A DNA stretch of 28,313 bases from a virus: IMG/VR virus record IMGVR_UViG_3300008954_000211, positions 1-28,313 of that record, one strand, 5' to 3'. Position 1 is the first letter of the stretch; every line of letters begins with the position of its first letter. The translations under genes were made by a program, and so were the position numbers. Shown here piece after piece: positions 3,001 to 21,762 of the stretch. Below the pieces are notes generated by a model. It had not been told where the DNA came from, did not search any database, and saw only the letters and a list, made by a program, of their open reading frames with translations.

Positions 3001-3233
3001 CCTCCCTCAGCCCCGATCTCCAGAGAACTCCCGTTGCTCATTCCAGGATAAAAGTTTCCTGTAGCTGGATCTATAAAATCAAAACAAAAATCTCTTTCGA
3101 ATTCCGGAACTGCAAAAGTAGCATCGCCAGCTAGGTAGATGTTCTCGCTGCCTCGGCCCGCACCGCCGGACTCATAACCTAGGTTGGATGCAGCATCAGT
3201 AATATAAGTGTTGCGTGAGCCAATTTTCGCCAT
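1..3233 (-). CDS. Very large unrecognised virion protein, probably baseplate-associated (partial, 3' end missing)
   Basis: An uninterrupted frame runs from ATG at 3233 to the left edge: 1077 codons with no stop, so the gene continues outside the window. I do not recognise the family. The start MAKIGSRNTY is preceded by GAAGG and follows the stop of the LysM baseplate gene by 4 bases, so the two are probably co-translated. The protein is mixed alpha/beta in look, rich in aromatic residues, with no signal peptide or membrane segment seen. Short charged helical stretches occur near residues 455 and 740 and a Gly/Ser/Thr/Gln-rich linker near residues 570-600. A stretch near residue 700 (FTINYLAYVEDFF) has the alternating pattern of a beta-barrel or tail hub domain. 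Its place directly after the tube initiator and gp53-like genes suggests a baseplate or tail-tip structural role. That role is inferred from position only. Confidence 0.85.
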   Translation of the reverse strand, partial: MAKIGSRNTYITDAASNLGYESGGAGRGSENIYLAGDATFAVPEFERDFCFDFIDPATGNFYPGMSNGSSLEIGAEGGQEARENAIKVQAAYAKFYVEFPKAMQAVHNGILMNEERWNQAFANLTITNTPDRPHHGTSFLEYHPDFLVQFNATEADSAATLRARLWRDPKATQHYAGEKSYGEGRSNLPILTGVGSALENEFAAGEVYHPRMVGGVDPAQYRARILAHNSSSAGEGALAGMGHDVFGGYNVRGRAPYIYDLISCNDGETLLDYAMKVYQEWIYWRALYLEQEENQHDQIDYNAVRKCMGEDDQSGCLDELIAEVEDERQSNFDDAAVRRDIALGLVQKASFREQCFLLSKIFPLVTYKKDTLDKLRGKRLPYVHGNEFYEPDGAHGKFVFQTPYPGNACLQVDGSSFGFMNLMTTDPAIFPFFQAHHSQLSMLQPMMRFFKVTEKIVEGEEKLFEKEINFDAFERNFPLPFSPQQMLMSSTQRGMGAGVKSFNFTYDGSNPFAAKKSIKAKLVIFANSFDELMKCRGNCKSDDASQGYRYIDLALKTGGPRIGQTEGSTSGRASGQTGEDPLACAPTNSGLPDDHQQQNTTVGEDPLDKLNFRLKAVVGYAPPPNLSGRNPEHTDLDFYGIENRGNLIGNLAAAFQGTTATKQYNSIRAAVDSSFVTLNLTPTTHDFKFDEMGRVTFTINYLAYVEDFFDQRHFNIFTNLEIAKFMLIRRMRFDKLKKICNNEEINDLKEKEKNEVGQNKLSNLKSLTQNLFNTGRVQFYNISYDQLKTWESEGPYANIGSSVSIRSSSPQAADDIAARIEQDVNIQLAGDAAETATGPQGHTKLFTKFIMDTNAQAIPFFYVGDLLDTILEGIDAYLSEGGMQGMIDQINAPNTPAANRIDEITECDKEYEKYKLRKFADEFKRFRTVLGPVEIVNPINISESRFVNLGDLPISIKYFNEWLTSKLLKKDRAVYTLPRFLNDFFNHLIRNFLNNDTCFNYNIKQKIKLNQSAVTDYTSPDTAEFKAAGQFEGMDTLTYHTFLANWRRRQGGDTALYKPIKLVPLGTANVPTQDGGY

Positions 3234-3237
3234 AAAT

Positions 3238-3576
3238 TTAGACCTTCAATACGTTGAGCGCATCTGCGAGCGTCAGCGGAATATAAATGATTGCGCCAGG
3301 AAACAGGTGAGCTTCAGTAGGGTACCCATTGTACCACGCGATGACCCACCAATATCTTACGTCTCCATATTGGTCATATGCCAAGTTGGAAAGGCGATCT
3401 GTGTTTTTCCAAATGTGTTTGTTGGAGGCAATGCGGCTTCTTTCACCAACACTAGGATGGTAGATCTTGGGGGTGGCATATTGGCGGATCCGTTTTACTC
3501 CGCGCTCTTTTCTCAGAGGAGAATAATAATCGCTCGCATTTGTTAGAATTGTGGTTGTTGAATATCGTGTTGGCAT
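3238..3576 (-). CDS. LysM-like baseplate wedge protein (gp53-like)
   Basis: This 112-residue protein carries a LysM-like fold signature at residues 52-105: a TDRLSNLAYDQYGD segment, then WWVIAWYNG, then PGAIIYIP. That order is typical of LysM-like domains in baseplate proteins such as T4 gp53, which help hold wedges to the hub. It is shorter than T4 gp53 (196 residues) and is essentially the LysM domain plus a 50-residue basic N-terminus. I place the start at 3576 (MPTRYS). This ATG overlaps the TGA of the upstream gene as TGATG and is preceded by GGGAGGA about 6 bases away. The in-frame ATG at 3591 would place the ribosome site inside the gene. The overlap implies translational coupling with the tube initiator gene. 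Confidence 0.8.
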   Translation of the reverse strand: MPTRYSTTTILTNASDYYSPLRKERGVKRIRQYATPKIYHPSVGERSRIASNKHIWKNTDRLSNLAYDQYGDVRYWWVIAWYNGYPTEAHLFPGAIIYIPLTLADALNVLKV

Positions 3577-7507: not shown

Positions 7508-7759
7508 TTATGATTTATCGGAGCTATTCATGTTCATCATGTGTGAGGGCATAACGGGTTGATTATGAGATCCGAGTGTTTGAACACCCCCTCCCTGTCC
7601 TTTGGAGGCGCGTTCTTGCGCGTCGTTCTCGTCCTCGATCTGTTTAATGAGACGCTTTACAAACCATTCGCGCAAACCTACGGGCAAATTGTAAGCCTCT
7701 GAGAAAGCCCATCCTCCCCAATATTTGAGAAAGAAGAACTGCTCATAGATATGCTCCAT
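7508..7759 (-). CDS. Tail assembly chaperone-like / gp51-position reading frame, probably expressed by frameshift or coupling
   Basis: The open frame extends upstream to 7861, overlapping the end of the gp26-like gene in a different frame. Protein-like sequence begins around GLTDNYMEHIYEQFFFLKYW. The conserved part (YWGGWAF, SEAYNLPVGLREWFVKRLI) looks like the small helical protein that follows gp26 in T4-like phages (gp51 position) or the second part of frameshifted tail assembly chaperones. The ATG at 7759 gives 83 residues and lies 4 bases after the gp26-like stop, but has no recognisable Shine-Dalgarno sequence. The alternative is a +1 or -2 shift at the T7 run at 7778-7784, which would append 89 residues to the gp26-like protein. 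Its place just before the tape measure gene fits a role in loading or protecting the tape measure during tail assembly. The C-terminal 30 residues are Gly/Ser/Met-rich and probably disordered. Confidence 0.65.
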   Translation of the reverse strand: MEHIYEQFFFLKYWGGWAFSEAYNLPVGLREWFVKRLIKQIEDENDAQERASKGQGGGVQTLGSHNQPVMPSHMMNMNSSDKS

Positions 7760-7763
7760 GTAA

Positions 7764-8624
7764 TTATCGGTCAGGCCAAAAAAAGTCCGCAGACAGCGGA
7801 ACCTCCATGTCCGCTTCATAATTACACTCGTCACACACATAATATTGGGTGAGATCGACATTCGGGGATGCGGTACGATAAGCCAAGCGCAAGCTGCGCG
7901 AATCTATTGAAGGAATGTTGTCAATGAGATATTGAATTGCTTCAGCAGAATCATCATTATTCACTGCTACGACCATATTGCTCAATTGTCGAGTAACATT
8001 TTTTTCGTAGCTCTTTTTCTTGCGATCTGCCTGTACAGCATTCGTGAAGTTCTTCTCATCTGCTCCGGTTAAGAGCCGAAAAGTAGCCGTCACATTGGTT
8101 CGTGGCAGCACAACATCAAAGGTTCCGTTTTGGTTGTCTATGATATCTCGGTCTGCCAAGTCGGTGCCCGTATAAACAGACGCCTCGTTTAAATCAAAAC
8201 TATATTCTGTGGTGGTGCCGCATGAAGGACAACTTACTTTTGTGTCGTATTGGTTTCCATATCCTGACACTCTGGCGCACAGGATAATGGCGTTGCGATC
8301 TCCCACCAATAAATTATCAGGGTTGATTCGTTTATCCACAATTAAGCTGCGGATTACTCGATCTAAAGCCACCCCCTTACGGAGCAACGTAGCAGATGTA
8401 AGCATGTCCTCTTCTTTAGCGGTCATTTGCTTAATCTCTAGGCTTTCTTCTCCGTGTAAAGGATGATCTTCTGGGTAGAAGCGCCCTTTAGACGGGAGTT
8501 CTACAAATTCAGTAGGTACAACGAAAGAAAACCCGCTATTTGGGGCCCCTTCTTGAAGTACTGTGGGTGGGGGGCTCGCTGCTTGTGTTGCGGCGCCGCC
8601 AACGCGGTTTTTATTTCGTGACAA
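7764..8624 (-). CDS. gp26-like baseplate hub / tail assembly protein with zinc-binding cysteines
   Basis: The 286-residue protein matches the T4 gp26 baseplate family in its N-terminal half: FVELPSKGRFYPE at residues 40-52, then a conserved QMTAKEEDML (66-75) and a helix with ARVSGYG. It has two CxxC pairs, C132/C135 (CPSCG) and C264/C267 (CDEC), which together could bind one zinc ion. The second pair lies 15 residues before the slippery site at the gene's end. The start is TTG at 8624, supported by GAGAGGTG five bases upstream; no suitable ATG lies near. The first 35 residues are Ala/Pro-rich. It follows the tail tube gene and precedes the tape measure gene. In phages of this type the protein acts in hub or tail assembly. 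Whether it is a virion part or a chaperone here is not decided by the sequence. Confidence 0.78.
   Translation of the reverse strand: MSRNKNRVGGAATQAASPPPTVLQEGAPNSGFSFVVPTEFVELPSKGRFYPEDHPLHGEESLEIKQMTAKEEDMLTSATLLRKGVALDRVIRSLIVDKRINPDNLLVGDRNAIILCARVSGYGNQYDTKVSCPSCGTTTEYSFDLNEASVYTGTDLADRDIIDNQNGTFDVVLPRTNVTATFRLLTGADEKNFTNAVQADRKKKSYEKNVTRQLSNMVVAVNNDDSAEAIQYLIDNIPSIDSRSLRLAYRTASPNVDLTQYYVCDECNYEADMEVPLSADFFWPDR
7778..7800 (-). other. Putative programmed frameshift site: T7 run with adjacent upstream hairpin
   Basis: On the coding strand, seven T residues (7784 to 7778) are read as TTT TTT TGG near the end of the gp26-like gene. A +1 slip of the tRNA on the second TTT, or a -2 slip, both keep perfect TTT pairing and both lead to GGC CTG ACC, the frame of the downstream 83-residue protein. 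A hairpin TCCGC-TGTCT-GCGGA (7800 to 7786) ends one base before the run. A GGAGG sequence (7806 to 7802) lies just before the hairpin. No clear stimulatory pseudoknot was seen downstream by eye. A -2 shift is known for phage Mu tail genes, and -1 shifts for many others. Confidence 0.55.
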
Positions 8625-9326: not shown

Positions 9327-12300
9327 TTAGTCGTCGAATGAAGCGCCGGTCGAAGCAATCACGAAGTCAATTGCGATATATTCGATAGCTCTTGCAGGCT
9401 TCACCATAATCTTAGCATACAAAATGTTTTGGTCAATCAAATCTGGAGTCGTGGTGCTCTCATCCAAAATTAACCTATAATCGGTGATTCCGAAGTTAAC
9501 CTTAGTGTTGGCCAATAGTGGCTCAATGAGAGACTTGAAACGATTCCAAGTAGCTTGCACATTTTGTTCGAAAAGAATTTGTGTGGAAAGGATAGAGATC
9601 TGCTTCTTCAAGTAGATGACAAGCCTTCGCACGTTGATTCTGTCAAGAGCCGATTGGCGTTCTTGCAGAGTTTTCTGTCCAAAGACCACAATTCCACTAG
9701 AGGGGAAAGAGGCAATTGGATTGATGCGAGACTCATACAGAGTGTCGCGGTTCTTAGAGGTTAATCTTTCTGTGACAGCGGTAATGGGGATACCAGCAGC
9801 ACCGTCACTCAAACCACCTCTATTAAAGCCCGCTGGCGCGAACCAAAGTTCGGAAGCCTTTTGCGAGCTAGCGAGAACACCCAGCATTGCCACAGAGGGC
9901 GGAATCCACAAGAGACGACCGCTAGAGGCATCTCGGGTTTGGACCCAAGGATAGAAGGTGCAACCGTAGCTGGAGTCAATGCGGCGATTTCTCAGCGCAG
10001 TTGCTGCAGCTTGGGGGGTCGTGCCGATGCGCGATGCCTTGCTGCTATAGTATTTCTCATGCGCGGGAATGTATACATCCGGCAGATCAATGAGTGCCAG
10101 TGCATCGGCCCGGTCTTCACACACATCAATCGCGCGGCCGGTCAAGGACGTGTGAGTGAGTCCTGGAATAGACAGTAAGTTCATATCAATAAACTCAGGA
10201 TCAGCTACCGTATCGATAGCCTGTGCATAAGTGTGGAAAGCATAGCTTGTATCCTCGGTTACATTTGCTCCCATTCCTTGATTATAGAGGGGATCTGGCT
10301 TTTGAATATCAAAGCCATCGAAACCGCCCCAGAATGGCGCCGTAAAACGGTTATATTCTGCATTGAGCAGGTTTTCATAAGTACCCGACGTTATAGACAA
10401 AGATGCTGCGCGGGATCCTGATTGATAAAAATAGCGGCCATTGCCGTCCACGCGCATATCATCCAGTGAGAAGACATAAGACCATGCTTCTACGCCGGCT
10501 GTATATTGTTTAGCAGGGTTCTGTCCCGAAACCGGATCATCGGGGAAACTAGCGTACAACAAGCGATGCCAGTCGGCAACACTCGGATCTGGGCGCGTGC
10601 TTCCAGAAGTACGTGTTACGGAAAAACCGAAATACGCATTCGTTGGGTTGGAAAGTCCCCCAGCAGATGCTGAAATCCTAAGCCGATCTTGGGGCCAATA
10701 TAAGGACGCTGTAAGTCCGACTACGATGTCCGCTTTGTTAGCAGCAGAGGCTCCTGTCATAAACATGCCGAAGCGCGCTTGTCCTTCACCACTCCCAAAG
10801 GCATTGGCCATAGAGTCAATGCCAGGAGCGCTCGCAATTGAACCGGAGCCCAGTACGAATTTGCTCGTAGTATTGGCTGAAGTAGAGGTGAATCCGGAAC
10901 CTGAGATAATAGGTTCGAAGTTCGGGGGACCGAAATAGCCGAAGGGCAGGAGAAGGGGATCGGATGCTCCGGCCTCGACGTCTGCATTCATTTCTACATA
11001 GACGAACTTAGATTCATTAGGATACTCGCCGTATTCCTTGAGCCGTGCTGCATTTGCATCCCAGCTTAAATATTTATCTCCAATGAGGCGTGCCACATAG
11101 TTAGGAGATGTAGGATCGAGAGTACAATTATCAAATCGTTCTAAGATGACCACATTGTTGTCTGTATCAAGCAAAGATCTAATAACCACCGAAAATGTAC
11201 CATATTGACTTGTCGTGCTCGTCGAGTGACGAACCTTTTCGATAGAGACTTTAGCATGCTTATTAAGCCATGCACCATGTCCACGACCCTTCAAGCGGAA
11301 AAGCTTGGGCATTTGCGCTGGCTTATAGGTGGCCGGGTCTCCACTTAAATCCTGTCCAATAAACCAACCGGCAACAGCTTCGCGAGAAGCTTGCGACTTC
11401 ATGTTTTGGGGACCGATAGTGACAGAGCCACTCTTGGCAATCCCATAAATGGCTCCTTGCATCGCTTGCCCACTAAGAGATGAGCCCGAAACCATATAGT
11501 TGCGCACATTAGCTTCAAATGATTCGCCTAACCAAATATATGCAGTATTCGGATAAAAAGTATTTTGCGCAGTTAATAATTGGGGATTAGTATTAAATCG
11601 CTTTCTAATAAACGTTTCTGCGTCATCATCGAAACCGAATTTTATAGTTTCTTGTACTTGATCCTCATTGGTTACCACCACAGTGAATAAATTGTTACTA
11701 TCCGTTCCGATGCACGCAGTTGTTCCTGACATCAAAGTGCCGCCGACGCCGCGGCCCGATCCTGACAATGCGACGGAGCCACTGTTCATATAGAAAATGG
11801 CTGCTAAGATGCCTGCGTTAGGTTCGGGATTGGAACCGGCGCCGGCTCCTGGGCCCGATCCGGTGGCAGTAGATCCTGGCTCGGCAACGTGGGCGGGGGC
11901 GTTAGCTAAATCTGGTCCGCTTCCCGAAGGAAAAACCCATAGTCCATAAGCGCCGCCGCCGCTATTGCCGCCATCCCAATGAGGATAGGAGCCCAAGTTA
12001 GCTGCATTGTTGGTGGTCTTCCACCCTGCAGCCGCAGCGCCGCCAGCGCTGCTGCCAGCAGTCGTTTGCTGCCCTAAAAGACGGATATATGTAAGAGGAG
12101 CAACGTTTGCATTTAAGAAAGCTTTGGCTGCATAGGTTCCGTACATCGGGGACTGAAGATTGCCGTTGCGGTAGATATCGCCGCCCGCACGACCGGGTAC
12201 GGTGTCTCCAAACATTTCAACGAAGTCTGCGTAGGACGAAACCTGAACAGGTTGCATGGCAAGACCACGAGATGCGCGGCCGATTACTACGGGGCCAATC

Positions 12301-12386
12301 GCTTGGGGGCTCTTAGGAATGAAAGAGTTATCAATTTCATTAATGAACACACCGGGGGAGACAAATTTAAAGTTTTTCACTGACAT
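9327..12386 (-). CDS. gp18: Tail sheath protein (gp18-like), unusually long
   Basis: The N-terminus SPGVFINEIDNS followed by GPVVIGRASRG and a FVEMFGD segment is the standard opening of contractile tail sheath proteins. The C-terminal 230 residues contain the other conserved half: a VFGQKTLQ segment, INVRRLVIYLKKQI, the FEQN helix and a final MVKPARAIEYIAIDFVI strand that links neighbouring subunits. At 1019 residues it is much longer than T4 gp18 (659). The extra length lies in the middle, in Gly/Ser/Ala/Pro-rich stretches (from about residue 110 to 220) and beta-rich outer domains that probably face outward on the tail. The ATG at 12386 has AGAGGAA upstream. The gene follows a terminator and a promoter-like motif, so it probably heads its own transcription unit. 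Confidence 0.95.
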   Translation of the reverse strand: MSVKNFKFVSPGVFINEIDNSFIPKSPQAIGPVVIGRASRGLAMQPVQVSSYADFVEMFGDTVPGRAGGDIYRNGNLQSPMYGTYAAKAFLNANVAPLTYIRLLGQQTTAGSSAGGAAAAGWKTTNNAANLGSYPHWDGGNSGGGAYGLWVFPSGSGPDLANAPAHVAEPGSTATGSGPGAGAGSNPEPNAGILAAIFYMNSGSVALSGSGRGVGGTLMSGTTACIGTDSNNLFTVVVTNEDQVQETIKFGFDDDAETFIRKRFNTNPQLLTAQNTFYPNTAYIWLGESFEANVRNYMVSGSSLSGQAMQGAIYGIAKSGSVTIGPQNMKSQASREAVAGWFIGQDLSGDPATYKPAQMPKLFRLKGRGHGAWLNKHAKVSIEKVRHSTSTTSQYGTFSVVIRSLLDTDNNVVILERFDNCTLDPTSPNYVARLIGDKYLSWDANAARLKEYGEYPNESKFVYVEMNADVEAGASDPLLLPFGYFGPPNFEPIISGSGFTSTSANTTSKFVLGSGSIASAPGIDSMANAFGSGEGQARFGMFMTGASAANKADIVVGLTASLYWPQDRLRISASAGGLSNPTNAYFGFSVTRTSGSTRPDPSVADWHRLLYASFPDDPVSGQNPAKQYTAGVEAWSYVFSLDDMRVDGNGRYFYQSGSRAASLSITSGTYENLLNAEYNRFTAPFWGGFDGFDIQKPDPLYNQGMGANVTEDTSYAFHTYAQAIDTVADPEFIDMNLLSIPGLTHTSLTGRAIDVCEDRADALALIDLPDVYIPAHEKYYSSKASRIGTTPQAAATALRNRRIDSSYGCTFYPWVQTRDASSGRLLWIPPSVAMLGVLASSQKASELWFAPAGFNRGGLSDGAAGIPITAVTERLTSKNRDTLYESRINPIASFPSSGIVVFGQKTLQERQSALDRINVRRLVIYLKKQISILSTQILFEQNVQATWNRFKSLIEPLLANTKVNFGITDYRLILDESTTTPDLIDQNILYAKIMVKPARAIEYIAIDFVIASTGASFDD

Positions 12387-15382: not shown

Positions 15383-17206
15383 TTATTCACCTGACTCACC
15401 CAAGAGTCCACGCACGATGACAAGACCGTACATATCAGGACGGACCATCTTCTTGGCGTAACGAGTCATCACGCCCTTACGGGGCACGAAGTCTTCGGGG
15501 CCAAAGATGGTGGGTGTGGTCTGCAGTGGCACATACGGTGCGTACACAAATCCACTTTCAAGGAAAGAAGATCCGCGACGTCCGACGAGAACCACGTTCC
15601 GCAGGAAGTATGGGTCAACAATGACGTCAAACTTCTTGGAAAGTGATCCCACCTTGACAGCACCAATGGAGCCCTTCTCATCATCATTAGTGACAGAAGC
15701 ACGGAATCCAGCCGTGAACTCAAGGAGATTGGCAAGTTCGGGTCCAACGACCACGAAGTTTGCACCACCCCGCAGAGTCTTGCGGTGAATCTGTGCGGAC
15801 ACATCATTAATGGTTTCGATCAGAGTCTCATACCATTCGCTCACAGTACCGGTGAAATCGGGAGCCTTTGTAGACGCACCAACCTCGGCACCAGTCTCGC
15901 GGTTTAAGAACATACCGGGAGAACGTGACCAGTAGTAAGTACCAGCAGTTGCACCATTGACGAGATCCGCAAGAATCTCACGGTCAATCTCAAGAGCGAC
16001 CTGCTCAGAGAGAATGCTCGTAAGCTCAACCTCAGCATCCAGGTTGTGGTAGGCGTTAAGATCCTGTCCTAACTCCGGAGTCCACTTAGCCTTCAGCTTC
16101 TTGGTTACTGCGGTAATCGCCACGGAATCGACCTTGATGTCGATCTCGGGGATGTTCTGCTGGTTTTCCAGTCCCCAGACAGCCTGTCCAACAACCGCAC
16201 CCAGAGCACCACCAGAGACAAGATCATCAGTCTGGGCCCAGGAAACAGTGTTCCAACTAGCCGTAAGAGCGCCGACAACAAAGTCCGACAGTTCCTTGGG
16301 GAGGTTGGGCTGCGCACCATCACTACCCGTACTCACGAAGACAAGCTTCACACGAGGCGTGGTGGAACCACTAACCCGTTCCGTATGACGACGAATCAAG
16401 CGTGCAGTTGCAACGGCGGCTCCCTCAGTACCGGTGGTAGCACCAGTCTTCAGAATACCATTTCCGAGAGAACAGGATACATTGAAAGACTGAGGTCCCT
16501 CCATGCTAGCCTGATCGAGTCCCGACTGCAACACTGTGACAACTGCCACAGCCGTAGAGCCAGACACGAAATCGGGATCCCAATCGACTGCCTTATTCAG
16601 CACCGAGGCAGAGCTTTCCATACTGCCAAAGACACCATAAGGTCCCGCTTGCACAGTAAGGGTGAGATTATCAGCCGTGTCCGAACCGGTTGGAGATGAA
16701 TAACCGTTGTTAAGGTTATACGCACCGCCAGCACCGCCGACGCCGTGCTGGTTCAGGTCCACACCACCAGTGATCTGGGACCCAACCTTTCCACCACCGT
16801 AGAAAGAGCTAGACCAGTCATAGGCCAAACGAGAATACTCGTTGTCAAGGCCGTTGCCGGTGTCGCGACTTACGGTGAAGTCCAGGAAGAAGATGAGACC
16901 CGAGGGGAGACTCATCGGCTGAACGCTAACTAGATCGTTAGCGATCAATCCCGCAAAAACACGACGGACAATGGGGAATGCGACGGCAGCAAAACCTTCG
17001 ACATCTCCACCAGCCATGGTAGAAGTTTCGCGGAGAAGCTCCTTTGCCTGATTTTCAAGCAAACGAGCCATAGAGTGGCGTTGACGCTCAGTGTTAATGC
17101 CTTCCAGCAAACCTGTGCGCTCCCACTTCTGTAGTAATGCATGCCCTTCAGCACGCAAATCACGATTGATAACTCCTTCGGTCAATCGTTCAATTATACC
17201 AGCCAT
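15383..17206 (-). CDS. gp23: Major capsid protein (gp23-like)
   Basis: The 607-residue protein contains the conserved blocks of the T4 gp23 HK97-fold family: FPIVRRVFAGLIANDLVSVQPM (residues 77-98) with LPSGLIF, the KKLKAKWTPELGQDLNAYHNLD block with ILSEQVALEIDREIL, and a C-terminal YVPLQTTPT and MVRPDMYGLV. The Leu-x-Glu sequence LRE at residues 58-60, before TST, fits the recognition pattern of gp21-type proteases and lies near the T4 cleavage site at residue 65. LLE at 49-51 is a second candidate. So residues 1-60 are probably a removed propeptide. A Gly-rich insertion at about 135-190 and further middle insertions make it longer than T4 gp23 (521). The ribosome site is a near-perfect AGGAGGT. 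The gene uses C-ending codons much more than its neighbours do, as expected for the most abundant protein. Confidence 0.95.
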   Translation of the reverse strand: MAGIIERLTEGVINRDLRAEGHALLQKWERTGLLEGINTERQRHSMARLLENQAKELLRETSTMAGGDVEGFAAVAFPIVRRVFAGLIANDLVSVQPMSLPSGLIFFLDFTVSRDTGNGLDNEYSRLAYDWSSSFYGGGKVGSQITGGVDLNQHGVGGAGGAYNLNNGYSSPTGSDTADNLTLTVQAGPYGVFGSMESSASVLNKAVDWDPDFVSGSTAVAVVTVLQSGLDQASMEGPQSFNVSCSLGNGILKTGATTGTEGAAVATARLIRRHTERVSGSTTPRVKLVFVSTGSDGAQPNLPKELSDFVVGALTASWNTVSWAQTDDLVSGGALGAVVGQAVWGLENQQNIPEIDIKVDSVAITAVTKKLKAKWTPELGQDLNAYHNLDAEVELTSILSEQVALEIDREILADLVNGATAGTYYWSRSPGMFLNRETGAEVGASTKAPDFTGTVSEWYETLIETINDVSAQIHRKTLRGGANFVVVGPELANLLEFTAGFRASVTNDDEKGSIGAVKVGSLSKKFDVIVDPYFLRNVVLVGRRGSSFLESGFVYAPYVPLQTTPTIFGPEDFVPRKGVMTRYAKKMVRPDMYGLVIVRGLLGESGE

Positions 17207-19773: not shown

Positions 19774-21762
19774 TTAGATAATAGACCATGAGCCGGAAAC
19801 AGTGTACACAAAGCCAACGGTGGCATAAGGATCGTTGAGGATGATTTGAGTTTCACCATCCATCTTATGCGTTCCGGAGACTTCTATATGAATACGATTG
19901 TTTACACCACAGTTACTCGGAGCTTTAACAAAGTATGTATCACCCACTGTCGGAGCCGAAGCTTCTGGCAGATTGATTTCGATATATCCTTGGTTGGGAT
20001 CAATGACACTAGCGGTAAAGTAATTCATACCCGCGGTCAATGTAACTCCCCACGCGGCGGCCGTGGAACTCATCGAGTCACCACCGGAAGTGTCCACAGA
20101 GAACACGCCGTTAGTGGCAGTAACACCAGTACCAGCCATCGCACTTGCGAGGTCAGCAATGCTTTCCTTCTTAGAAGCGTTGCTATCGTTAGCGTCGACA
20201 ATAGCAATGCTATCGTTAGCAACGTCAACAGCAGCAGCAGTCAACGAGTCCATGTCGAGAGCCAGCACCGAGGATGCAGCCTTCAGGCCGTTGCTTCCAG
20301 CAAGGAAAGTTGCGAAATCAGCAAGAGACTCTTTCTTGCCATCGCCAGTAGCGCCACCATCCAGGAACATGACATAGTCAGCCGCGGCAATCGAAGCTTC
20401 CGTGAGCAAAGCAGGAGACTTGGTGATCATGTTGTCGAAAGTGACTTTGTGAACTCCATCATCGCCGGAGTCATTGAACGCGATAGCATCGCCAGTGGCA
20501 ATAGTTTCGGCTGACAAGTTAGCGATGTCGAGAGCCATCACTGCAGAAGCGGCGGTCAGACCAGTACCAGCAAACAAAGTTGCGATATCATCGATGGTTT
20601 CTTGACGAACCACATCACCATTTTGATCATTGAACAAAAGAGTGTCCGTGGATGCAATAGCAGCCGCGGTTACATTGGCAATATCAAGGGTGAGAACACC
20701 GCTGGAAGCAGCGAGTGCGCTGTTGCCGACTGTGCCAGCCAGGAAAGTTGCTATGTCATCGATACTTTCCACTTTGGAAGCGTTGGAGTCATTTGCATCA
20801 ACAAACGCAAATTTATCGCCAGAAGCCACAGCCGCATCACTCAATTCGCTAAGGTCGAGTTCAAGTACTCCGCCAGTTGCACCGAGGCCTGGGCCCGCGA
20901 GGGCAGTGACGACATCGGACACAGCCTCCTTCTTGGCTTCGCCCGAGGCGCCACCATCAAGGAAGACGATATAATCGTCTTCGACTGCAATCGCAGCTTC
21001 AGTAACAAGCGCTGGACCGATCTTGAAAAGATCGTCAACGGTTTCCTTGTGGAGACCGTCGTCGCCATCATCATTGAATACGATAGTATCGCCAGTAGCA
21101 ATAACTTCTGCATTCAAGTTATTGATGTCAAGTGCAAGAACACCACTTGAATCGGCGAGTGCCGTAGTGGTTACTGTGCCAGCGATTGCACCCACAAGGT
21201 CAGCAATGCTTTCCTTTTTCGACAGATTAGAGTCGTTAGCGTCGATGATAGCAAAGCTATCGTTAGCAACGTCAACTGCAGCAGCGGCAAAATCGTCGAG
21301 ATCAACAGTAATATCGTCAGCAGCAACCGACAGACCACCGTTAGTTGCGCTAACAACAGCGAGTGTTGAGTTGGTCACAGCGAGTCCGGCGCCACCGAGC
21401 AAGCTAGCGAGATCAGAAGTATCACCCTTGGATTCGGCGCCGCTGGTGCCACCATCAAGGAAGATGAGGAAATCCCCATCCGCAATGGTTGCGGATGCCG
21501 CTTCAGTCAGATCGACGGCGATGTCATCATCATTAACGTCGATTAGAGAACCAGCGCCAACAGCAATAGTGTTGACACTACGCACCAAACCTGAGCCGGC
21601 AATATTGTCGCACAAATCCGTACTAAGGTTTCTCCCGTCGATTAATCCGGAAGCCGAAATGTTAGTAGTAGCACCACTTGCACTCAGAGCCGACTGGATT
21701 GGACCGGCTACAGTGAGAGAACCACTTAAAGTTGTGGGTCCCAATTGAAATTTATAAGCCAT
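19774..21762 (-). CDS. Repeat-built virion fibre / surface protein (nine Asp-rich repeats plus cap domain)
   Basis: The 662-residue protein has an N-terminal head (1-85), nine imperfect repeats (about 90-555) and a C-terminal cap (about 563-662). Each repeat has an LDI/VDL start, an A-x-GD strand, an Asp/Asn-rich turn, then K-x-ES/T-x-x-DL and a short Ala/Gly helix-like end. The turns come in three types: FLDGG (101, 267, 466), DANDSN (174, 322, 523) and FND-type (229, 377, 429). The Asp/Asn-rich turns could bind calcium. The cap has LTAGMNYFT, INLPEASAPTVGD, a KAPSNC segment and SGSWSII, and is closely related to the cap of the 211-residue neighbour. There is no signal peptide and no enzyme motif. 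It is most likely a fibre or capsid-surface protein. The ribosome site is a strong AGGAGGG. The gene uses more C-ending and regular codons than the flanking genes and ends at a strong terminator, suggesting high expression. Confidence 0.85.
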   Translation of the reverse strand: MAYKFQLGPTTLSGSLTVAGPIQSALSASGATTNISASGLIDGRNLSTDLCDNIAGSGLVRSVNTIAVGAGSLIDVNDDDIAVDLTEAASATIADGDFLIFLDGGTSGAESKGDTSDLASLLGGAGLAVTNSTLAVVSATNGGLSVAADDITVDLDDFAAAAVDVANDSFAIIDANDSNLSKKESIADLVGAIAGTVTTTALADSSGVLALDINNLNAEVIATGDTIVFNDDGDDGLHKETVDDLFKIGPALVTEAAIAVEDDYIVFLDGGASGEAKKEAVSDVVTALAGPGLGATGGVLELDLSELSDAAVASGDKFAFVDANDSNASKVESIDDIATFLAGTVGNSALAASSGVLTLDIANVTAAAIASTDTLLFNDQNGDVVRQETIDDIATLFAGTGLTAASAVMALDIANLSAETIATGDAIAFNDSGDDGVHKVTFDNMITKSPALLTEASIAAADYVMFLDGGATGDGKKESLADFATFLAGSNGLKAASSVLALDMDSLTAAAVDVANDSIAIVDANDSNASKKESIADLASAMAGTGVTATNGVFSVDTSGGDSMSSTAAAWGVTLTAGMNYFTASVIDPNQGYIEINLPEASAPTVGDTYFVKAPSNCGVNNRIHIEVSGTHKMDGETQIILNDPYATVGFVYTVSGSWSII
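20098..21495 (-). repeat. Nine-unit coding repeat with a higher-order C-A-B pattern
   Basis: Units of roughly 40-70 codons within the 662-residue gene fall in three turn types. In protein order they read C-A-B-C-A-B-B-C-A (C = FLDGG, A = DANDSN, B = FND..GD). This points to duplication of a three-unit block of about 150 codons plus an extra B unit, rather than of single units. Confidence 0.8.

Follow-up and report, generated by a model that had tools for sequence, protein, structure and literature searches.

Does translation of the gp26-like gene of this virus always end at the gene's own stop codon, or do some ribosomes pass, by a programmed frameshift, into the frame that overlaps its 3′ end? 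We analysed the locus within the window, a virus record of 28.3 kb taken over its full length, in which the tail genes described below all lie on the minus strand.

Gene order, overlapping frames and predicted fold

The tail sheath gene (12386-9327) is followed by the tail tube gene (9265-8666; phrog_4542, E 3e-23; PF06841, E 3e-5), which adjoins the gp26-like gene on its upstream side. The gp26-like gene (8624-7764) starts at a TTG codon preceded by GAGAGG and ends at a TAA stop (7766-7764), encoding a product of 286 aa that corresponds to a short, G-like chaperone form by its PF12322 and phrog_150 matches and its fold. This protein matched PF12322 (T4_baseplate) with E 7e-17 and 62.2 bits, above the curated cut-off of 24.5, and phrog_150, labelled 'baseplate hub', with E 2e-19. 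A second frame, open from 7861 to a stop at 7508 on the same strand, overlaps it; the putative frameshift extension, a T-like helical tail of approximately 89 aa, occupies 7777-7508, with GGC at 7777 as its first codon. The second frame matched DUF6760 (PF20546) weakly (E 0.005-0.008; 17.5 bits, cut-off 27). A search of the plasmid collection gave no match. Further downstream, a gene of 858 aa (7435-4859) showed no family match of its own and was assigned to the tape measure position by its place and size; a tape measure is annotated at the equivalent place in SP-15, LIS04 and immuto. The gp26-like gene is thus located between the tail tube gene and the tape measure position, as is characteristic of a G/GT-type chaperone. 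Elsewhere in the window, the tail sheath protein (9327-12386) is very long (1019 aa), with the sheath-family match confined to its last ~320 residues. The major head protein of 607 aa (15383-17206) matches phrog_138 at residues 348-586 and is extended at its N-terminus by a long additional part, in which residues 31-102 match a different head protein family, and a 662-aa gene at 19774-21762, which has no PHROGs match, is overlain by three long antisense open frames (182-241 aa).

The gp26-like gene ends with ATG GAG GTT CCG CTG TCT GCG GAC TTT TTT TGG CCT GAC CGA TAA. The T run (TTTTTTT, 7784-7778) is read in the 0 frame as TTT TTT TGG (7784-7776), a slippery site conserved among relatives, and TTTTTTTGG is present as a single copy in the whole record. 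A mini-hairpin, TCCGC(7800-7796)-TGTCT-GCGGA(7790-7786), with a conserved core of 4 bp, ends one base ahead of the T run, and a Shine-Dalgarno-like GGAGG (7806-7802) lies 17 nt ahead of it. None of the ATG codons of the second frame (7861, 7840, 7819 and 7759) is preceded by a Shine-Dalgarno sequence. All the parts named in the first-pass annotation (TTT TTT TGG, hairpin, GGAGG and an open second frame lacking a Shine-Dalgarno sequence) were therefore located on the minus strand, and the fusion of about 371 residues that it predicted agrees with the 371 residues computed for a +1 slip after the second TTT, reading ...ADFFGLTDNYMEHIYEQFF... across the junction. Taken alone, a seven-T run is near chance (3 on the minus strand, 3.3 expected), and the hairpin of the window as a single sequence gave a z of only −1.4; since neither is significant in the window by itself, neither was used as evidence. 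No RNA structure was found downstream of the site (z +0.6).

For the structural analysis, the gp26 part and the tail were modelled apart, not as one chain of 371 aa. The gp26 model (pLDDT 89.4) gave as its top PDB match in Foldseek the HK97 tail assembly chaperone 2OB9 (probability 0.90, E 0.15). Structural re-alignment over residues 27-131 gave moderate scores with 3fgx (Z 7.0), 3klu (5.5) and 2ob9 (5.5), the next matches being 5ir0 (4.5) and then 3.4; the first three are described as tail assembly chaperones (PMC9603447). A chaperone fold was thus found for the N-terminal domain of the short form, with moderate scores (Z 5.5-7.0). The tail was modelled as a helical domain, confidently predicted only downstream of the junction, and a fold search of this model against the PDB returned no match, which speaks neither for nor against the assignment. 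Fold and gene order are those of the lambda G/GT layout, and bear out the tail-chaperone role initially proposed for this gene.

Conservation of the overlap and direction of the probable shift

The overlapping frames were compared in two sets of loci, most of them from uncultured viruses. The close set comprised 80 IMG/VR loci with gp26 60-99% identical, of which 76 were testable for open frames (over a span reaching from 9 nt upstream to 110 nt downstream of the 0-frame stop); the distant set, obtained by profile search, comprised 84 loci that share 24-33% identity with the SP-15 query, of which 78 were testable. All 80 close loci keep the overlapping arrangement. The +1 frame was open across the 0-frame stop in every testable relative (76/76 close, 78/78 distant; 154/154), and the −1 frame in none of the 76 close and 10 of the 78 distant relatives (10/154). 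It is this conservation across relatives, not the T run or a single hairpin, that exceeds chance. The same +1 layout was found at 25-37% identity in named phages, namely, the LR756508 phage, Microcystis phage Mel-JY01, Flavobacterium phage immuto, Rhodothermus phage RM378, Bacillus phage SP-15, Streptococcus phage SagM-GXN1 and Listeria phage LIS04. Overlapping frames that share a conserved slippery site, a further feature of G/GT-type chaperone genes, are therefore present. Within the gp26-like gene, silent-site conservation was highest at the slippery site; among 46 dereplicated genes, the codons GAG (46/46), CCG (45/46), GCG (45/46) and TTT (46/46) were essentially invariant, with an expected codon identity of 0.27-0.70. 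In six loci (L020, L046, L058, L059, L062 and L079) the +1 frame is open only from 11 nt before TTTTGG; upstream of the shift this frame thus need not code, and the conservation of CCG and GCG there points to an RNA signal.

These data bear on whether the second frame might instead be an independent short gene, starting at the ATG at 7759 through coupled translation or through re-initiation once gp26 has terminated, with no fusion formed. The window and most relatives do have an ATG a short way past the 0-frame stop, and DUF6760 genes of injection systems show a start/stop overlap with a good ribosome site. However, no ATG of the frame has a Shine-Dalgarno sequence, 51 of 164 loci lack an ATG in the tail frame, and 17/164 lack ATG, GTG and TTG alike (between the upstream stop and 45 nt past the 0-frame stop), so that in the latter the tail would be reachable by shifting only, barring an unusual start codon. 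An independent gene would also leave unexplained the open frame upstream across the slippery run and the silent-site constraint, and we consider it improbable. The overlap and, with some variants, the slippery site are retained in the relatives, and well-separated frames with a good ribosome site on the second gene were not seen among the phage relatives. The programmed frameshift suggested in the first-pass annotation is thus supported by conservation, by the start-less relatives, by gene position and by fold.

The direction of the shift, initially given as +1 or −2, was judged from the variant sites. Close and distant loci together carried TTTTTTTGG (145 loci), TTCTTTTGG (11), TTTTTTTAC (4), the rarer TTCTTTCGT, TTCCTTTGG and TTTCTTTGG (2 loci each) and single variants. 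A −2 shift as in Mu, which would add one more Phe, leads into a reading frame identical to that of a +1 shift, and the seven Ts of the window permit re-pairing two bases back. In contrast, TTC TTT TGG (11 loci), TTC CTT TGG and TTT CTT TGG (2 each) re-pair in +1 and not two bases back; at TTCCTTTGG and TTTCTTTGG the tRNA on CUU could re-pair with UUU after a +1 slip, as it does in prfB, but would mispair after a −2 slip. Because the variant sites re-pair well solely for +1, this direction is favoured and the +1 half of the original proposal retained, while a Mu-type −2 shift appears very unlikely and was rejected.

Transcriptional slippage, in which RNA polymerase would drop a U at the seven-T run with the help of the nascent hairpin and so join the frames in a fraction of the mRNA, is equally hard to sustain. 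The order of hairpin and T run fits it, nascent stem loops being known to stimulate polymerase slippage (PMC5009743), but the +1 layout persists in variants that have no more than three or four Ts in a row, in some of them together with the hairpin (L021). A homopolymer assembly or sequencing error splitting what is really one gene can be practically dismissed, error-prone as homopolymers are, given that an identical offset recurs in more than 150 contigs, drawn from many samples, as well as in isolates and in variants without the homopolymer, that different 0-frame stop codons are kept a few codons later, and that in-frame versions are not the rule in relatives, the opposite being seen.

Upstream hairpin, GGAGG and a model of the +1 slip

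Across 84 distinct sequences, the 4-bp core of the hairpin, CCGC/GCGG, was paired in 92-100%, although conservation of the 3′ arm is biased by the part of this set that was gathered by the pattern GCGGAC. The perfect 5-bp hairpin originally noted is present in the window, but its outer T-A pair was kept in only 43% of these sequences. Hairpins mostly end 1-4 nt before the first Phe codon and are stronger than in synonymous-codon shuffles. In sequences with GAGGT, 23 of 29 formed strong stems, against a shuffle mean of 4.45 (max 9, 100 shuffles; energy z −10.1); in those without GAGGT the corresponding values were 12/31 and 7.1 (max 12; z −3.3). Stems at the equivalent place differ in sequence (TCCGC/GCGGA, TGCCG/CGGCA, ACCGTC/GACGGT, TACCG/CGGTA, TCCGTT/AACGGA, ATCCC/GGGAT and ACTCC/GGAGT), which argues that structure, and not sequence, is what is conserved. 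In the GGAGGT clade few compensatory changes were seen, the core being nearly invariant.

Pairing of the upstream stretch with the anti-Shine-Dalgarno sequence also exceeds that of synonymous shuffles (z −10.8, broad set). At 17 nt upstream, GGAGG is farther away than in known Shine-Dalgarno-stimulated shifts, unless the hairpin shortens the distance. The prfB (RF2) +1 site shares with the present site P-site re-pairing in +1 on CUU U / UUU U and a Shine-Dalgarno-like sequence upstream; it differs in that the A-site codon here is UGG, not a stop, and in that GGAGG is 17 nt away, compared with approximately 3 in prfB. In synthetic constructs, −1 shifting can fall and +1 shifting rise when a stem loop is positioned 4 nt 5′ of the −1 site (PMC5009743). 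By analogy, the hairpin may block backward and favour forward movement of the ribosome; the hairpin, and possibly GGAGG, would take part in the shift. If the hairpin drives the +1 shift, these phages would provide a natural, widespread case of a 5′-adjacent stem loop stimulating +1.

In conjunction with the chaperone fold and gene order, these results make it very probable that the gp26-like gene is a myovirus tail assembly chaperone gene, expressed in a short and a long form via a +1 slip at the T run. In this model, most ribosomes would terminate at 7766-7764 and yield the 286-aa short form, like lambda gpG. In a minority, with UGG in the A site, the P-site Phe-tRNA would leave UUU (7781-7779) and pair anew with the UUU that overlaps it one base further downstream (7780-7778), aided by the small hairpin that forms immediately 5′ of the site and, possibly, by GGAGG. 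Shifted ribosomes would add approximately 89 residues, giving a long form of 371 aa that resembles gpGT. If the lambda system is a guide, the tape measure protein would be bound by the chaperone part and the tube protein recruited by the helical extension. The sequences themselves show the overlapping frames, the conserved site and hairpin, the start-less relatives, the chaperone fold and the gene order; the occurrence of the shift in vivo, its efficiency, the roles of the hairpin and of GGAGG, and these binding partners are inferred.

Relation to T4 gp51, cyanophages and other tail chaperones

T4 gp26 and gp51 are both full-length members of PF12322, and gp51 extends approximately 45 residues past the point where gp26 stops. 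Judged by sequence comparison, T4 gp51 is a gp26 paralogue bearing the same C-terminal tail as the frameshift extension. In 80 cyanophage-type loci, gp26 terminates in T TTT TTC NNN stop; the −1 frame was open across the gp26 stop in 78/78 testable loci. Its product is the short protein annotated 'gp51 baseplate hub assembly catalyst', and three loci have no start codon in this frame. In 81/82 cases the codon preceding TTT TTC has T as its last base, compared with 64% of Ser codons elsewhere in these genes. In profile comparisons, the cyanophage tails matched gp51 at 97.2% (E 3e-11) and the +1 tails at 95.1% (E 3e-8), reversed-sequence controls giving at most 0.2%. The +1 tails were linked to gp51 via this cyanophage intermediate, as the direct match to T4 gp51 was not significant (HMM E 0.2; profile-profile 20.6%). 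Sullivan et al. (2010, PMC3037559) had noted that the first ~200 residues are missing from cyanophage gp51; on our reading, the frameshift lets gp26 provide them.

Other arrangements were also observed. Jumbo phages LR756511 (L086), Pseudomonas phage Paride (L091) and Agrobacterium phage Atu_ph07 (L092) have a −1 layout at T-rich sites, and direction thus varies among fairly close gp26 relatives. In Synechococcus phage S-SCSM1 (L179, ~3180-3374), the gp51 tail differs from that of other cyanophages in lying in the +1 frame with its own ATGs, and TTT TTC is kept where gp26 ends. In contractile injection systems of several Actinomycetota, a DUF6760 gene with a good ribosome site follows the gp26-like frame with a start/stop overlap. 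In four of these (L268, L272, L277 and L286) it overlaps the stop of a gp26-like Zn-ribbon frame (GTGA/ATGA), with GGGGGA just upstream of its start (CGCCTGGGGGAATCRTGA), which looks like coupled initiation rather than frameshifting; L274 and L278 have CTGA and no ATG, GTG or TTG. Given the good ribosome site and the start/stop overlap, we make no claim of frameshifting in injection-system DUF6760 genes. Together with S-SCSM1, this branch indicates that some members of the wider family do without the frameshift. A search of viral contigs with the Vibrio Bakedbeans protein found nothing.

Frameshifting of tail assembly genes is conserved, as in lambda gpG/gpGT (Xu, Hendrix and Duda 2004; reviewed in PMC5009743). 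The present gene shares with the lambda system its position between tail tube and tape measure genes, a short and a long form from one start, a slippery run close to where the first frame ends and a short C-terminal extension; it differs in shifting +1, not −1, in belonging to PF12322 and in being seemingly stimulated by a 5′ hairpin. T4 has members of the same family, but derives the two forms from two genes rather than from one gene by a +1 shift. The T4-like cyanophages likewise combine gp26 with an overlapping frame for a homologous tail, but shift −1 at T TTT TTC, without a 5′ hairpin. In the tail genes of phage Mu (PMC5009743) the second frame has the same relative phase, whereas the variant sites here disallow the −2 shift of Mu. 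Pseudomonas phage Adele and the Andersonviridae (PMC12846349) also have a poly-T slippery site at the end of a myovirus chaperone gene, with the downstream frame left as a hypothetical gene as here, but belong to other virus families and shift −1 at GTTTTT.

A 2016 review describes G-T frameshifting as conserved in long-tailed phages, T4 excepted (PMC5009743). As far as its title and the papers citing it indicate, the study of Vladimirov, Gautam and Davidson (2022) identified T4-type tail assembly chaperone genes (gp26, gp51), proposed in its title that T4-like phages use a mechanism different from frameshifting, and apparently covers poly-T −1 sites too. According to papers citing it, a short and a long gene occur together in some T4-like phages (PMC10274946), and T4-type chaperone genes are known to contain poly-T −1 signals (PMC12846349). 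We therefore do not present the T4 gp26/gp51 chaperone link as new: the connection between T4-type and lambda-type tail assembly made in the first-pass annotation stands, but seems largely published already, and the cyanophage −1 part may well be known. For the +1 branch and its 5′ hairpin we found no account in the open-access literature searched, including the 2022 study as represented by its title and citing papers. Three features appear to be new: a large branch that shifts +1, a change of direction inside a single family, and a hairpin directly 5′ of the site.

These comparisons suggest that the two-gene arrangement of T4 stands beside large branches shifting either −1 (cyanophages) or +1 (the present lineage, SP-15, immuto, Mel-JY01 and RM378). 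More tentatively, and with the odds slightly against it, one homologous chaperone family may switch shift direction between lineages (+1, −1 or two genes without a shift), with a hairpin 1-4 nt before the site driving +1 and absent from −1. The long form is absent from annotations, and the 'baseplate hub' label should probably become tail assembly chaperone; on this reading, short 'gp51' or hypothetical genes behind gp26 are frameshift extensions in these phages. The differences in direction among relatives would help explain how tails are built in T4-type viruses.
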